Source: Sulfurimonas sp.
GTDB taxonomy: Bacteria; Campylobacterota; Campylobacteria; Campylobacterales; Sulfurimonadaceae
Length of the DNA: 34,867 nucleotides
Assembly: GCA_027071075.1 (NCBI GenBank)
Contig: JALSUU010000085.1
Coordinates: 1 to 34,867, forward strand
Reading direction: 5' to 3'
The first letter of the stretch is position 1, and each line of letters begins with the position of its first letter. The position numbers and the translations under genes were made by a program. Shown piece by piece: positions 27,645-34,867 of this stretch. The notes beneath the pieces are model-generated. The model was not told the DNA's origin. It saw nothing but the letters and a program-made list of their open reading frames with translations, and did not search any database.

Positions 27645-28079
27645 ATGAAAACAAAATACTCTCCTTTAGTGCAGGTAAAAAAAAACATCATGCAAAAAAG
27701 TGAGAGAGTTTTACAAAGTACTAACGCAAAACTCTACAGACTCCAAGATGAACTCAAAAGTTCTATTGTAGCCTTAGACAGTATTGTTACCCCCTCAAGC
27801 GGAAAGATTTCAGAATTTTTATCTTCAAAAACACTTTTAGAATCCCAGCGACTCCTTATACAACAAAAAGAAGCTCTACTCTTTTCTGTTCAAGAAGAGA
27901 TGAAAGAAGCAAAAGCACAACTCAAAGTTGATATGATAGAGTATGAAAAATTTAACTATCTTGATCTTCAAGAGCGTAAAGAGTTTGAAGAAAGAAAAAA
28001 GAGAGAAGAAGCAAAAGAGTTAGATGAAGTAGCACTTCTTATCTACTCAAAAACTGCACAAAACAAGGAAAAAATTTGA
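27645..28079 (+). CDS. Coiled-coil protein, possible FliJ-like flagellar export chaperone
   Basis: 144 aa, start YSPLVQVKKNIMQKSERVLQ resembles FliJ N-terminus; predicted all-helical, charged; overlaps the MotE-like gene by 4 nt. Confidence 0.5.
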   Translation: MKTKYSPLVQVKKNIMQKSERVLQSTNAKLYRLQDELKSSIVALDSIVTPSSGKISEFLSSKTLLESQRLLIQQKEALLFSVQEEMKEAKAQLKVDMIEYEKFNYLDLQERKEFEERKKREEAKELDEVALLIYSKTAQNKEKI

Positions 28080-28585
28080 AACTTTTACTACTACTAACTA
28101 TTATATACTCTAACATTTTTGCACTCCAAACAAGTGATAGACTCTTTGAGTGTACTGAAATATTTAAAGAACGAAAAAGTGAACTTCTTGTAGAACTTGA
28201 GCGTATAGATGAGCAAAAACAAGCCCTTAGTGCCCTTAAAACTGCCACAGAAGAACTTCTCAAACAAAAAGAGTCTCAACTCTCTCTTAAAGAAGATGCG
28301 GTGAATGAAAAACTTACAGAAGCTACAAAAAAAGAGGCAAGTATCAAAAAGATGCTTGCAAAAAATGAAGCTACTCTTAAAAATCTAAAAAGTACTAAAA
28401 TGAGTAAAATTGCTCAAACTTTTTCTAAAATGAAAGCAGCTTCTGCATCAAACATACTCTCAGAGATGCCCTCGCATGATGCTATAACAATTTTACAAGC
28501 ACTTAAGCCAAAAGTAGTTGGGAAGATTTTAACAAAAATGGACGCAAAAAAAGCTTCAGAACTCACACAACTTTTAAACAAATAG
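28076..28585 (+). CDS. MotE-like / MgtE N-terminal-domain periplasmic protein
   Basis: 169 aa; signal peptide MKLLLLLTIIYSNIFA, long coiled coil, then MSKIAQTFSKMKAASASNILSEMPSHDAITILQALKPKVVGKILTKMDAKKASELTQLL. Confidence 0.65.
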   Translation: MKLLLLLTIIYSNIFALQTSDRLFECTEIFKERKSELLVELERIDEQKQALSALKTATEELLKQKESQLSLKEDAVNEKLTEATKKEASIKKMLAKNEATLKNLKSTKMSKIAQTFSKMKAASASNILSEMPSHDAITILQALKPKVVGKILTKMDAKKASELTQLLNK

Positions 28586-28660: not shown

Positions 28661-29212
28661 ATGAAAATATCACTTAAAGCTATCCCCCATATATCAAACA
28701 AAATTGCAATTGAATTAAATAAAAGTGGTGTCGTTACTATGACAAAAGGTTTAGAACCAATAGCTAACGAAGCAGAAAAAATACTTGAAGAAAATGTTAA
28801 AAGAGAGATAGCCTTAGAAGAAAAAGTAAATGATATCTGTGATGACAATGAAGAAGAGATTGAGTTTATGCTTGCCGATGAGAGACAACTCTTTTTCATG
28901 ATTAAGAAAAAAATTGCTCCTGAATTTGGTGTGATTTTAAACTATGAAGAGAGATTTTCAGATATTAGTCATAGAATTTTAGATGAATTGTATGAAGAGG
29001 ACTTAATCCACTTTGATGTTACGGAAAATCGTATCAAAAATATTATCTATTCAGCTATGACAAACTTTATGGCTGATACTTCTGAGATTGAAGATGCAGT
29101 AATGGATAAAATCCGTTCATACAAAAGAAAGTTCATCCCAGGAACTGATGAATTTGAAATTTTACATGAAAAACTTTACAGAGAAGAGATGATGAAAAGG
29201 GGTATGGAGTAA
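28661..29212 (+). CDS. DUF507 family protein
   Basis: 183 aa; MKISLKAIPHISNKIAIELNKSGVVTM, ILDELYEEDLIHFDVTENRIKNIIYSAM, overlaps carA start. Confidence 0.8.
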   Translation: MKISLKAIPHISNKIAIELNKSGVVTMTKGLEPIANEAEKILEENVKREIALEEKVNDICDDNEEEIEFMLADERQLFFMIKKKIAPEFGVILNYEERFSDISHRILDELYEEDLIHFDVTENRIKNIIYSAMTNFMADTSEIEDAVMDKIRSYKRKFIPGTDEFEILHEKLYREEMMKRGME

Positions 29213-30360
29213 TGAGCACAACTAAGAGTTTAAAAAAAGTATATTTATATCTTGAAAATGGCACTTATTTAGAGGCTTCTAGTTTTGGAGCTGAAACCAC
29301 ATTAGTTGGTGAGATAGTTTTTAATACTTCTATGAGTGGCTACCAAGAGATTATGTCTGACCCCTCGTATGCAGGACAATTTGTTACTTTTACTATGCCA
29401 GAGATTGGAAATGTTGGTGTAAATGCACAAGATATGGAGAGCGCATCTGCTCATGCAAAAGGTATGATAGTAAGAAAATATCAAGCGAGATACTCAAACT
29501 TTAGAGCGGAAGGTTCACTAGCAGATTTTCTAAAAAAGTACAATGTTATGGGTATATGTGATATAGATACAAGATTCTTAACAAAAATGATTCGTAGCGA
29601 AGGTGCTATGATGATGGTTGCTTCTACTGAGATAAGTGATAAAGTGGAATTACAAAAGATTCTCTTAGATGCTCCACGCATCGAAGATATCAATTACATC
29701 GAGCAGGTAAGTACAAAAAAAGCCTATAAGCACACATCGAGTACATACAATGAAAAAACTGCTTTTGAGTATGAAGAAGCACCGAAAGAAGAAGCAAAAA
29801 TAGCTGTTATAGATTTTGGTGTAAAAAGAAATATTCTCAATGAAATAGTAAGTGCAGGAATTGCTGTAGAGGTTATTCCAAATGACTTTCATGCGGAGAC
29901 TCTTATAGCAGACTATGCTGATAAAAAGATAGATGGTGTTTTCCTCTCAAATGGTCCTGGAGATCCACTTGTCCTAAAAAAAGAGCAAGAGCAGATTAAA
30001 AAACTTATAAGTGCTAAAATTCCTATGTTTGGAATCTGCTTAGGGCATCAACTCCTCTCTATCTCTCATGGATACGATACATACAAACTTAAGTTTGGTC
30101 ATCATGGTGGAAATCATCCTGTAAAAAATGAAAAAACAGGTTTAGTAGAGATTACTGCACAGAATCATAACTATAATGTTCCTGATAATATCACAGAAAT
30201 TGCAACTGTAACCCACTCAAATCTTTTTGATGATACTATTGAAGGTTTACAGTATAATGATGCACCAATATTTTCAGTACAACACCACCCAGAATCTTCT
30301 CCTGGACCAAAAGAGAGTCGTTATATATTTAAAGAATTTCTATCTCTTATCAAGAGATAG
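29212..30360 (+). CDS. carA: Carbamoyl-phosphate synthase small subunit
   Basis: 382 aa; LENGTYLEASSFGAETTLVGEIVFNTSMSGYQEIMSDPSYAGQ, GICLGHQLLS, NHNYNV, QHHPESSPGP. Confidence 0.98.
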   Translation: MSTTKSLKKVYLYLENGTYLEASSFGAETTLVGEIVFNTSMSGYQEIMSDPSYAGQFVTFTMPEIGNVGVNAQDMESASAHAKGMIVRKYQARYSNFRAEGSLADFLKKYNVMGICDIDTRFLTKMIRSEGAMMMVASTEISDKVELQKILLDAPRIEDINYIEQVSTKKAYKHTSSTYNEKTAFEYEEAPKEEAKIAVIDFGVKRNILNEIVSAGIAVEVIPNDFHAETLIADYADKKIDGVFLSNGPGDPLVLKKEQEQIKKLISAKIPMFGICLGHQLLSISHGYDTYKLKFGHHGGNHPVKNEKTGLVEITAQNHNYNVPDNITEIATVTHSNLFDDTIEGLQYNDAPIFSVQHHPESSPGPKESRYIFKEFLSLIKR

Positions 30361-30583: not shown

Positions 30584-32077
30584 ATGGAGAATCGTCCATT
30601 AGAGTACGACTATACAGTTGCAAAGATGTTTATGCTAACTACAGTTCTTTTAGGTATTGTAGGTATGCTCATCGGTGTAATTCTAGCATTCGAGCTTGCA
30701 TTCCCTGGTATTAATACAATACTTGGATCAGGTTTAGCTGAATTCACAAACTTCAGTCGTCTTCGTCCACTGCATACAGATGCAGTAATATTTGGTTTTA
30801 CACTAAGTGGTATTTTTGCTACTTGGTATTATGTTGGTCAGCGTGTACTCAAAGTGTCAATGGCAGAATCAGGCTTTTTGATGTTTATCGGTAAGTTACA
30901 CTTTTGGTTATATATCGTAGGTGTTGCAGCAGTTGTTGTTTCACTTCTTGCAGGTGTTACAACTTCAAAAGAGTACGCTGAGTTTGAGTGGCCAATTGAT
31001 ATCGCTATCGTTGTTGTATGGGTACTATTTGGTGTGAGTATCTTTGGTCTTATCGGTATGCGCCGTGAAAAGTCACTCTATATTTCAGTATGGTATTACA
31101 TCGCTACTTTCTTAGGTATAGCTATGCTTTATCTATTTAATAACATGGAAATTCCTACTATGCTTGCAACATCTGCAGCTGGTGAGAGTGGAATTGGTGC
31201 TTGGTACCATTCTGTTTCTATGTATGCTGGTACAAATGATGCACTTGTTCAATGGTGGTATGGTCATAATGCAGTTGCATTTGGTTTTACTGTTCCTATT
31301 GTTGCAATGATTTACTACTTTTTACCAAAAGAGTCTGGTCAAGCTATCTACTCATATAAATTATCATTACTCTCTTTCTGGGGTTTAATGTTCGTTTACC
31401 TATGGGCTGGTGGTCACCACCTTCTTTACTCAACTGTTCCTGACTGGATGCAAACTATGGGATCTATTTTCTCAGTAGTTCTTATTCTTCCATCATGGGG
31501 TTCAGCGATCAATATGCTCTTAACAATGAAAGGTGAGTGGCAACAAGTTGCAGCTTCTCCACTCATCAAGTTTATGGTTCTTGGTTCTACATTCTATATG
31601 TTCTCAACATTAGAAGGTCCTATCCAAGCTATTAAATCTGTTAATGCTATTGCTCACTTTACTGACTGGATTATTGGTCATGTTCATGATGGTGTTCTTG
31701 GTTGGGTTGGCTTTATGATTATGGCTGCACTTTACCACATGGCTCCTCGTGTGTTTAAAAGAGAGATTTACTCTAAGTCATTAATGGCTACACAATTTTG
31801 GATCCAAACTTTAGGTGTTGTTTTATACTTCACTTCTATGTGGATTGCAGGTATTACTCAAGGTATGATGTGGCGTGCTCACGATGAGTTTGGTAACTTA
31901 GCGTACTCATTCATCGATACTGTTACAGTTCTTCACCCTTACTATGCAATTCGTGGTGTTGGTGGACTATTATACTTAACTGGTTTCTTAATGTTTGCTT
32001 ATAACATTTACAAAACTATGACTGCTGGAAAAGAGCTTGCTCAAGAACCAGCTAATGCATCGCCTATGGGCGCTTAA
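30584..32077 (+). CDS. ccoN: cbb3-type cytochrome c oxidase subunit I
   Basis: 497 aa; RLRPLHTDAVIFGFTLSGIFATWYYVGQR, QWWYGHNAVAFGFTVPIVAMIYYFLPK, WAGGHHLLYS, HVHDGVLGWVGFMIMAALYHMAPR; AAGGAGG SD. Confidence 0.98.
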   Translation: MENRPLEYDYTVAKMFMLTTVLLGIVGMLIGVILAFELAFPGINTILGSGLAEFTNFSRLRPLHTDAVIFGFTLSGIFATWYYVGQRVLKVSMAESGFLMFIGKLHFWLYIVGVAAVVVSLLAGVTTSKEYAEFEWPIDIAIVVVWVLFGVSIFGLIGMRREKSLYISVWYYIATFLGIAMLYLFNNMEIPTMLATSAAGESGIGAWYHSVSMYAGTNDALVQWWYGHNAVAFGFTVPIVAMIYYFLPKESGQAIYSYKLSLLSFWGLMFVYLWAGGHHLLYSTVPDWMQTMGSIFSVVLILPSWGSAINMLLTMKGEWQQVAASPLIKFMVLGSTFYMFSTLEGPIQAIKSVNAIAHFTDWIIGHVHDGVLGWVGFMIMAALYHMAPRVFKREIYSKSLMATQFWIQTLGVVLYFTSMWIAGITQGMMWRAHDEFGNLAYSFIDTVTVLHPYYAIRGVGGLLYLTGFLMFAYNIYKTMTAGKELAQEPANASPMGA

Positions 32078-32095: not shown

Positions 32096-32788
32096 ATGTT
32101 TCATTGGTTAGAAAAACACCCGTTCTTTTTCGCGGTAGGTGTATTTGTTACAATCTCGTTTGCAGGTTTAGTTGAAATTGTTCCAAACTTTGCTCAACAA
32201 TCTCGTCCTTTAATCGGAACAACTCCATACTCTACTTTAGAGTTAGCGGGTCGTCAGGTTTATATTAAAAATAGTTGTAATGCTTGTCACTCTCAACTAA
32301 TTCGTCCATTCAAATCTGAGACAGATCGTTATGGTCACTACTCTTTAAGTGGTGAGTATGCTTATGATCGTCCTTTTCTTTGGGGTTCAAAGAGAACTGG
32401 TCCAGACTTAATGCGTGTAGGTAACTACCGTACAACTGACTGGCACGAAAACCATATGAAAGATCCTGCTGCAGTTGTTCCAGGTTCAATCATGCCAAAA
32501 TATACATGGTTATACAAAAACATAGCTGATATTGATACTGCTTTTGCAGAGCAATTAACAGTATCTCAGTTCTTCTCTGTTCCTTACAATAAACCAGTTC
32601 CTATGAAAGATGGGTCAACTAAAATTGTAAAAATGGGTGGAAGTGTTGCAGAAGCAAATGCTATGGCTTTAGCTGAAGCAAAAGTAATTGTAGCAGATAT
32701 GAAAGATCAAGATGTTAAAGATGCAGTTGCTAATGGTAAGATTCCTGAAATCGTAGCATTAATTGCATACTTAAATAGTCTTAAGTAG
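32096..32788 (+). CDS. ccoO: cbb3-type cytochrome c oxidase subunit II (mono-haem)
   Basis: 230 aa; YIKNSCNACHSQLIRPFKSETDRYGHYSLSGEYAYDRPFLWGSKRTGPDLMRVG. Confidence 0.98.
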   Translation: MFHWLEKHPFFFAVGVFVTISFAGLVEIVPNFAQQSRPLIGTTPYSTLELAGRQVYIKNSCNACHSQLIRPFKSETDRYGHYSLSGEYAYDRPFLWGSKRTGPDLMRVGNYRTTDWHENHMKDPAAVVPGSIMPKYTWLYKNIADIDTAFAEQLTVSQFFSVPYNKPVPMKDGSTKIVKMGGSVAEANAMALAEAKVIVADMKDQDVKDAVANGKIPEIVALIAYLNSLK

Positions 32789-32797
32789 GGAAAGATA

Positions 32798-33001
32798 GTG
32801 TTCAGTGCTGAATTTCAGGCGTATGGTTATCTTGCAGTCACTGTCTTTATGACAGTTTCCTTATATGCTTATATATATCATTTATATAAGAACAGGAAAG
32901 ATGCAGATGGCAAAGATTATGAAGAGTATAGCAATATGGCACTAAATGATGATATAGCAGATACTCCGGTAAATGCTCTATCAAAAGATGATAAAAAATA
33001 G
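32798..33001 (+). CDS. ccoQ: cbb3-type oxidase subunit CcoQ-like, GTG start
   Basis: 67 aa single-TM protein in the canonical position between ccoO and ccoP. Confidence 0.8.
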   Translation: MFSAEFQAYGYLAVTVFMTVSLYAYIYHLYKNRKDADGKDYEEYSNMALNDDIADTPVNALSKDDKK

Positions 33002-33010
33002 GAGAGATAT

Positions 33011-33937
33011 ATGAATAAGCTTTATCTTTGGGGAATTATCATTACAATCGCAATGCTTGGATTTACTTACCTTTCGGTAGGTACATCTAAGGGTGGATTA
33101 AATGGTGATATCGTAAATATGCTTGCAATTGCAGGTGCAGTAGCACTTGTAATCATTACAGTTTTTGTTGTAATCAAGTATGTTCGTCAAATGCAAACTG
33201 ATACTGCTGATGGTGAGTTAGCAGCTGAGTCTTGGGACGATATTGGTGAATATAAGAACCCTGTACCATTTGGTTGGGCTGTTATGTTCTTAGGAACTAT
33301 AGTTTGGGGTATGTGGTACTGGGTAGTTGGTTACCCTGTAAATGCATATTCACAAATTGGTGAGTATAATGAAGATGTTGCAAAGCATGATGCAAAGTTC
33401 AATGCACAATATGCTTCTATCACTGGTGATAGATTAGTAGAGATGGGTGAATCTGTATTCTTAGCAGAGTGTAAGGTATGTCATGGTCTTGCTGCTGATG
33501 GTATTGATGGCAAAGCTGCTAACTTAAATGTTAGAGTTGAGCAAAAAACTGTTAAGTATGTAATTGAACATGGATCTAACAACCATCTTCTTGGTACAGA
33601 GATGCCAATGCCAGACCGTAACGGTCTTTTCAATATGACTACTGGAGCACTTATCACTGATGCAGAGATAGAATCTGTATCTAAGTATGTTTCCAATGGT
33701 ATGAGTGGTGAAGGTGCGGAAGTATTTGCTGGAGTTTGTTCTTCATGTCACGGTGCGGATGGAATGGGTATGGAGTATGTAGCGCCAAGTATTGCTGCAT
33801 TTAATCCAACACTTGTTACAAATGTTCTAAATCATGGTAAAAAAGGTGCTATCGGTACTATGCCAGCATTTAAAAGATTAAATGACAAGCAAAAAGAAGC
33901 TGTTGGTGCATATATCACTAGCTTAAGTGCGAAGTAA
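33011..33937 (+). CDS. ccoP: cbb3-type cytochrome c oxidase subunit III (di-haem)
   Basis: 308 aa; ESWDDIGEYKNPVPFGWAVMFLGTIVWGMWYWVVGYP; two haem motifs CKVCH and CSSCH. Confidence 0.97.
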   Translation: MNKLYLWGIIITIAMLGFTYLSVGTSKGGLNGDIVNMLAIAGAVALVIITVFVVIKYVRQMQTDTADGELAAESWDDIGEYKNPVPFGWAVMFLGTIVWGMWYWVVGYPVNAYSQIGEYNEDVAKHDAKFNAQYASITGDRLVEMGESVFLAECKVCHGLAADGIDGKAANLNVRVEQKTVKYVIEHGSNNHLLGTEMPMPDRNGLFNMTTGALITDAEIESVSKYVSNGMSGEGAEVFAGVCSSCHGADGMGMEYVAPSIAAFNPTLVTNVLNHGKKGAIGTMPAFKRLNDKQKEAVGAYITSLSAK

Positions 33938-33947
33938 GGAGTCAGGT

Positions 33948-34157
33948 ATGAATGAAAATAGAAGCGTATTTGCTCTTGATGGTGTAACTGGTATGCTTAT
34001 AGCTACAGTATTACTACTTAGCATTTTAGCATTTTTAACAGTTAATGCAATAGGTGTGCAAACAGCTAATTCAGAAAACTTTTATAAAATAAAAGATGAA
34101 AAATTAATTAAGATGATTGACACGACAAGTGCTTCTCATGTTGTTGATGTGAAATAA
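33948..34157 (+). CDS. DUF4006-like small membrane protein
   Basis: Start moved from 33927 to ATG 33948, which is preceded by AAGGAGTCAGGT; 69 aa MNENRSVFALDGVTGMLIATVLLLSILAFLTVNAIGVQ..., one TM, co-directional with ccoP. Confidence 0.75.
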   Translation: MNENRSVFALDGVTGMLIATVLLLSILAFLTVNAIGVQTANSENFYKIKDEKLIKMIDTTSASHVVDVK

Positions 34158-34167
34158 GGAGTAGAAA

Positions 34168-34257
34168 GTGGAAAAAATTATTGCAATTGGTCTAGTGATT
34201 ATGGCTGCATTCACACTTTTCTCGGTTTTAACACCCAACCACCTTTATGTAGGGTAG
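34168..34257 (+). CDS. 29-aa single-TM microprotein (VEKIIAIGLVIMAAFTLFSVLTPNHLYVG), GTG start
   Basis: Manual translation; AAGGAG 7-12 nt upstream of GTG at 34168; ends TAG 34257; 10 nt before next CDS. Below ORF-track length cut-off. Confidence 0.65.
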   Translation: MEKIIAIGLVIMAAFTLFSVLTPNHLYVG

Positions 34258-34266
34258 GAAATTTCA

Positions 34267-34867
34267 TTGAAATTTTTAACTAGAGGGCTTTATGCCCTCA
34301 TCCTCACACTTATCTTCCAAACCCAACTATTCGCAGAATATTTATATAAAGATGAAGTAGTCCATAGAGCTGCTTTCAGTGAACAAGTAGAAAAACTAGG
34401 ATTTGAACTCCATCAAAAAACGGGCATTGCACTCCGTCTCATAATGCTCAAAAAATTGCCAGAAGGTATGGATATGGCAGTATATGAAAAAGAAATTCTA
34501 AAGAATTTCTCGGAGCCTACTATACTACTCTCTTTTTCAGAACTCGATTCACAAGTTGACATACAGGTAAATGACCCCTCTTTATATAAGTATTTTAATA
34601 GAAAACAGGTACTCTCACCTGTAGCTTCCCCTGTTCAAGCTTTCATGATGGCTCTAGCCTATGGACATACTTGGGAAAGTTTTAATGAGCTGAGAACAAA
34701 CTATGGAGGTAGTATACTGCCTCTTTTAGCAGGAAAGGCAAAAAAAGAGCAAGTCATAGGAAAATATGCAGGATCAATGTTTAATGGATACATCGATATC
34801 TCTCACCAAATCTCTACTGCAAAAGGAGTTGTTTTAGAAAATGACCCAGGTGATGCGAACCAAACAG
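34267..34867 (+). CDS. Secreted/periplasmic protein, possibly TPM-domain-like, truncated by window edge, TTG start
   Basis: Manual translation open to the end: (M)KFLTRGLYALILTLIFQTQLFAEYLYKDEVVHRAAFSEQVEKLGFELHQKTGIALRLIMLKKL...; signal peptide; AGGAA 6-7 nt upstream of TTG. Not in ORF track because no stop. Confidence 0.7.
   Translation, partial: MKFLTRGLYALILTLIFQTQLFAEYLYKDEVVHRAAFSEQVEKLGFELHQKTGIALRLIMLKKLPEGMDMAVYEKEILKNFSEPTILLSFSELDSQVDIQVNDPSLYKYFNRKQVLSPVASPVQAFMMALAYGHTWESFNELRTNYGGSILPLLAGKAKKEQVIGKYAGSMFNGYIDISHQISTAKGVVLENDPGDANQT

Follow-up and report, generated by a model that had tools for sequence, protein, structure and literature searches.

CcoY, a 29-Residue Membrane Protein from the cbb3 Oxidase Operon of Campylobacterota

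Does the 29-codon open reading frame (ORF) that follows the DUF4006 gene in a Sulfurimonas cbb3 oxidase operon encode a protein, and what might such a protein contribute to the oxidase? In the microaerophilic Campylobacterota, the cbb3 enzyme serves as the high-affinity terminal oxidase. The window (the whole stretch of DNA analyzed, 34,867 nucleotides long) lies on contig C85 of a metagenome-assembled genome, and its forward strand carries, in order, ccoN for the catalytic subunit (30584-32077; PF00115, E 3.6e-106), ccoO (32096-32788; PF02433, E 1.7e-83), ccoQ (32798-33001; PF05545 and TIGR02736), ccoP for the dihaem cytochrome c subunit (33011-33937; PF14715 and PF13442), and ccoX, the 69-aa DUF4006 gene (33948-34157; PF13179, E 1.9e-28). 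The ORF in question occupies positions 34168-34257 of the same strand and is ccoY, sixth in the cbb3 oxidase gene order ccoN-O-Q-P-X-Y-Z of Campylobacterota. The seventh, ccoZ (34267-34867, forward strand), begins with TTG, a start that recurs in close relatives, encodes a signal-peptide-like N terminus, is cut by the contig end, and was traced with a profile grown from the ORF itself. Farther upstream lie a FliJ match (27645-28079), a gene for an MgtE_N-domain protein (28076-28585), a DUF507 gene (28661-29212), and an ORF (29212-30360) that by eye resembles the carbamoyl-phosphate synthase small subunit.

The ccoY frame runs from GTG to TAG, is translated as VEKIIAIGLVIMAAFTLFSVLTPNHLYVG (29 aa), and was characterized by sequence, synteny, profile search, and dN/dS; the profile termed A1 recovers it from its own genome at E 3.4e-16. 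A Shine-Dalgarno-like TAAGGAG (34155-34161, forward strand) overlaps the ccoX stop codon and stands 6 nt before the GTG, and an AGGAG- or AGGGG-like site precedes the start in most relatives. The gap to the ccoX stop codon, which ends at 34157, is 10 nt and that to ccoZ is 9 nt, so that the GTG start, the 29 codons, both spacings, and the AAGGAG site given in a preliminary description of this DNA all hold. The single transmembrane helix predicted in that description agrees with a plain hydrophobic stretch (mean Kyte-Doolittle hydropathy 2.65 over the best 17 residues).

Frame conservation, on which the preliminary description had made its reading depend, is evident in 79 relatives collected by protein similarity and mostly from Sulfurimonas: translation starts at the same codon (ATG in 78, GTG in one), and a stop directly follows codon 29 in all 79. 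Pooled over 1208 pairs from these 79 loci, dN/dS is 0.11 (dS 0.91, dN 0.10), a descriptive ratio rather than a test because the pairs are non-independent; the shifted frames of the same loci give 1.8 and 3.3, and variation and entropy peak at third codon positions. The frame is under strong purifying selection. Moreover, in each of the 58 DUF4006 loci examined first, the next ORF is on the same strand, encodes 29-37 residues, lies between an 11-nt overlap and a 21-nt gap from the DUF4006 gene, and ends in a C-terminal motif such as TPNHLFVG; recurrence at the same place and on the same strand in 58 of 58 argues that ccoY is not a product of chance. An open frame by chance would suit the shortness of the ORF and the presence of about 20 ORFs of similar length overlapping the same few kilobases, but the dN/dS, the conserved start and stop, the phylum-wide synteny, and a published phenotype oppose it, and this explanation, to which almost no probability is attached, is rejected on dN/dS and synteny. 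The ORF is a real gene, of translated type and constrained, that travels with the oxidase.

That phenotype comes from Campylobacter jejuni, where cj1486c (DUF4006, ccoX), cj1485c (ccoY), and cj1484c (ccoZ) lie between ccoP and ccoH, and where cj1485c, which encodes 33 residues with one transmembrane helix, was named ccoY in 2021 (PMC8267372). The window ORF is almost certainly its orthologue. Both occupy the slot between ccoX and ccoZ, both encode one hydrophobic helix and a ...TxNHLxxG tail, and the C. jejuni-like protein is 59% identical to the window protein over 29 residues; the C. jejuni protein differs in having four more N-terminal residues (33 vs. 29 aa), and the window gene in its GTG start and its Sulfurimonas metagenome-assembled host. 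The published cj1485c primers match both ends of the ORF exactly in two of the loci collected here, L021 and L023 (PMC8267372). In a full-text search of the available papers, the name ccoY was not found beyond that one; cj1485c appears in a transcriptome paper among the downregulated genes, as one for a putative periplasmic protein, and a C. jejuni ribosome-profiling census validated, as a set, 47 of the 55 annotated small ORFs (PMC11955535). The earlier suggestion that the protein is unannotated stands in part: the window CcoY matches no Pfam or NCBIfam model, and a search of PDB chains with profile A1 gave nothing at E values up to 10, but the C. jejuni gene already carries an annotation and a name. 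Individual relatives gave scattered, weak family matches (E about 0.002-0.5), which were discounted as hits to unrelated short hydrophobic families. The gene and its C. jejuni phenotype are already known and Sulfurimonas is a new host; what is new here is the phylum-wide distribution, the constraint, the diverged Helicobacteraceae form, the gene-order variants, and the lack of a family model.

Of the 397 genomes sampled from the phylum, 380 have DUF4006 (PF13179); all 14 control genomes lack it. Profile A1 detects ccoY in 279 of the 397; the genomes that it misses belong mainly to family f2, which includes Helicobacteraceae by name and sequence, and to family f5, so that A1 alone fails to find the Helicobacteraceae gene. 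Direct inspection of 30 f2 loci revealed in all of them a single-helix ORF of 33-41 residues in the slot (e.g., MKFTTLEKILALMVVATILMTIVISFVPNLFLFST). Profile-profile comparison joins these ORFs to the A1 type with 92% probability, a value obtained between two short hydrophobic profiles, for which operon position is the stronger argument; together these observations support a diverged form of ccoY in Helicobacteraceae, as judged from sequence and location. A homologous or same-slot single-helix ORF of 28-41 residues was found in every examined cco locus of the Campylobacterota. Among 20 genomes without DUF4006, 17 yielded nothing that matches ccoN. The gene is present in G389, where the match is cut short, and in G230, where the locus ends within ccoP; G426 has a ccoN match at 24% identity only. 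Near-complete genomes devoid of DUF4006 are devoid of ccoN too, with two truncated exceptions. A scan meant to reach beyond the phylum with A2, whose pattern is specific to the TPNHL tail and would miss distant relatives elsewhere, returned 204 confirmed matches; among the 80 listed, all bear Campylobacterota names except two titled "bacterium."

What, then, might CcoY do? The preliminary description had proposed that this small single-helix protein may be a subunit of the cbb3 oxidase or a factor in its assembly, and the oxidase phenotype on which it had also made its reading depend is published for the C. jejuni orthologue: deletion of ccoX abolishes ascorbate/TMPD oxidase activity, and deletion of ccoY or ccoZ significantly decreases it, without abolition in the case of ccoY (PMC8267372). 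The phenotype comes from a single species but probably holds more generally. The available text of that paper describes no complementation for the ccoY deletion, which may therefore be polar on ccoZ (PMC8267372). Since ccoY follows the oxidase genes, is constrained, and lowers activity when deleted in C. jejuni, the reading favored here, with moderate confidence, is that CcoY serves the cbb3 oxidase as an accessory subunit with one helix, comparable to CcoM or CydX. In such an arrangement, one face of the helix (I5, L9, A13, T16, and V20) would pack against the oxidase core or CcoX, the conserved tail (TPNHLFVG) would sit at the outer membrane surface, and CcoY would stabilize the assembled enzyme, as CcoM does in Pseudomonas or CydX and CioY do in bd-type oxidases. 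An alignment of 124 sequences (about 32 effective) places the most conserved positions at A13, V20, T22, H25, and G29, with I5, L9, and T16 close behind. The spacing of the conserved transmembrane positions corresponds to one helix face, with a peak at 100 degrees, a periodicity that is suggestive but not significant (p 0.08; 0.12 in Helicobacteraceae). Conservation is highest in the tail, an argument for contact between the tail and a partner.

The same tail raises the idea that its histidine binds copper and delivers it to CcoN, which would suit the conservation of the NHL-motif histidine in 94% (weighted) of TPNHLFVG-type proteins. This is highly improbable: the Arcobacteraceae-like family f7 and loci L017 and L055 lack the histidine, Helicobacteraceae do not have it at the NHL place, and it is thus not universal across families, which makes metal binding unlikely, and the C. 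jejuni ccoX, ccoY, and ccoZ mutants are not rescued by added copper (PMC8267372). Two genomes of the Sulfurimonas-type genus (loci L017/L220 of G239 and L055/L221 of G416) have T(I/L)GQAVLVG in place of the TPNHLFVG tail.

Gene order bears on two further explanations. Where the available sequence extends far enough, a set of 80 DUF4006 loci (79 fetched plus the window) displays the order N-O-Q-P-X, and CcoQ went undetected by search in one duplicate operon (L277). The small ORF directly follows ccoX in 76 of the 80. Families f8 and f11 include three loci (L212, L215, and L274) with ccoG between ccoX and ccoY (TIGR02745, E 1.5e-153 in L212, with the same sequence start seen in L215 and L274). 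In G394 the contig ends after ccoX, and a ccoY match is located close to the end of a different contig. A ccoZ relative, detected with the profile from the window ORF, is found downstream in 77 of the 80 loci, including the C. jejuni-like L241. Two f7 genomes, G337 (L260/L261) and G374 (L277/L278), each have two cco operons that encode identical O, P, and X proteins and N proteins of 95-98% identity. Their ccoY copies diverge in the first half (MYYTIWFLLIM... vs. MEKIIGILLIV...), a pattern that looks like gene conversion stopping at ccoY. The second operon keeps ccoY without ccoZ, the variant copy being followed by a 524-aa ORF (MIEKELSPLEIL...), and ccoY therefore appears tied more closely to the oxidase block than to ccoZ.

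These duplicate operons speak against the proposal of a supercomplex in which CcoY and CcoZ together tether the Qcr (cytochrome bc) complex to the oxidase, for two of them carry ccoY without ccoZ; the C. jejuni ccoY mutant is, in addition, defective with ascorbate/TMPD, which supplies electrons to the oxidase without Qcr (PMC8267372). The proposal, which is improbable overall, draws on the resemblance of CcoZ to the mycobacterial supercomplex protein MSMEG_4692, on its co-migration with Qcr and oxidase subunits (PMC8267372), and on the continued adjacency of ccoY and ccoZ in the loci with an inserted ccoG.

The inserted ccoG, itself a biogenesis gene, and the location of ccoY amid biogenesis genes instead suggest a transient assembly factor, which would work with CcoX and CcoH in cofactor insertion or the joining of subcomplexes and leave before the enzyme is finished. 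Mass spectrometry of C. jejuni complex bands identified CcoX, CcoH, and CcoZ, with CcoY absent from the proteins named in the available text, and this absence, like the decreased rather than abolished activity of the ccoY mutant, agrees with transient association and counts against the accessory-subunit reading (PMC8267372), though a protein as small and hydrophobic as CcoY yields few tryptic peptides. On the other side, copper gives the ccoY mutant no rescue, unlike ccoI and ccoS mutants (PMC8267372), and most of the oxidase microproteins known at this size are subunits (CcoM, CydX, and CioY); an assembly role is accordingly considered unlikely, if a good deal less so than tethering or copper delivery.

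The accessory-subunit reading may be carried further. CcoX co-migrates with the oxidase subunits in C. jejuni (PMC8267372), and CcoX and CcoY could be obligatory, stoichiometric cbb3 subunits in practically the whole phylum, Helicobacteraceae included, a broader claim that is put forward tentatively and that we would currently doubt slightly more than believe. If true, the oxidase of this phylum would comprise NOQP plus XY, unlike the structurally known proteobacterial enzymes. As a gene present in every examined cco operon and invisible to Pfam and NCBIfam, ccoY is a target for oxidase structure work, and its distribution justifies a family model for annotation.

Several known small oxidase proteins invite comparison. 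CcoQ (FixQ, PF05545) is likewise a small membrane protein of this operon, but it has its own gene there, and the identification of CcoY as CcoQ/FixQ was ruled out: CcoY matches neither PF05545 nor TIGR02736, and the operon's true CcoQ matches both. CydX of E. coli and CioY of C. jejuni are single-helix accessory proteins of about 34 residues encoded behind oxidase genes (PMC11955535). They serve another oxidase class, however (CydAB and CioAB), and CioY has conserved Trp, Pro, and Tyr residues unlike the CcoY motif; against the CydX, CydP, and CioY family models, the window CcoY gave no match and one of 37 relatives matched CydP weakly (E 0.0084). CcoM of the Pseudomonas stutzeri cbb3 oxidase, which is needed for stability according to literature cited in PMC8267372, differs in not being known behind a DUF4006 gene. 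CcoY is set beside CcoM by description, each being a very small (36 aa for CcoM) protein with a single helix that belongs with a cbb3 oxidase.
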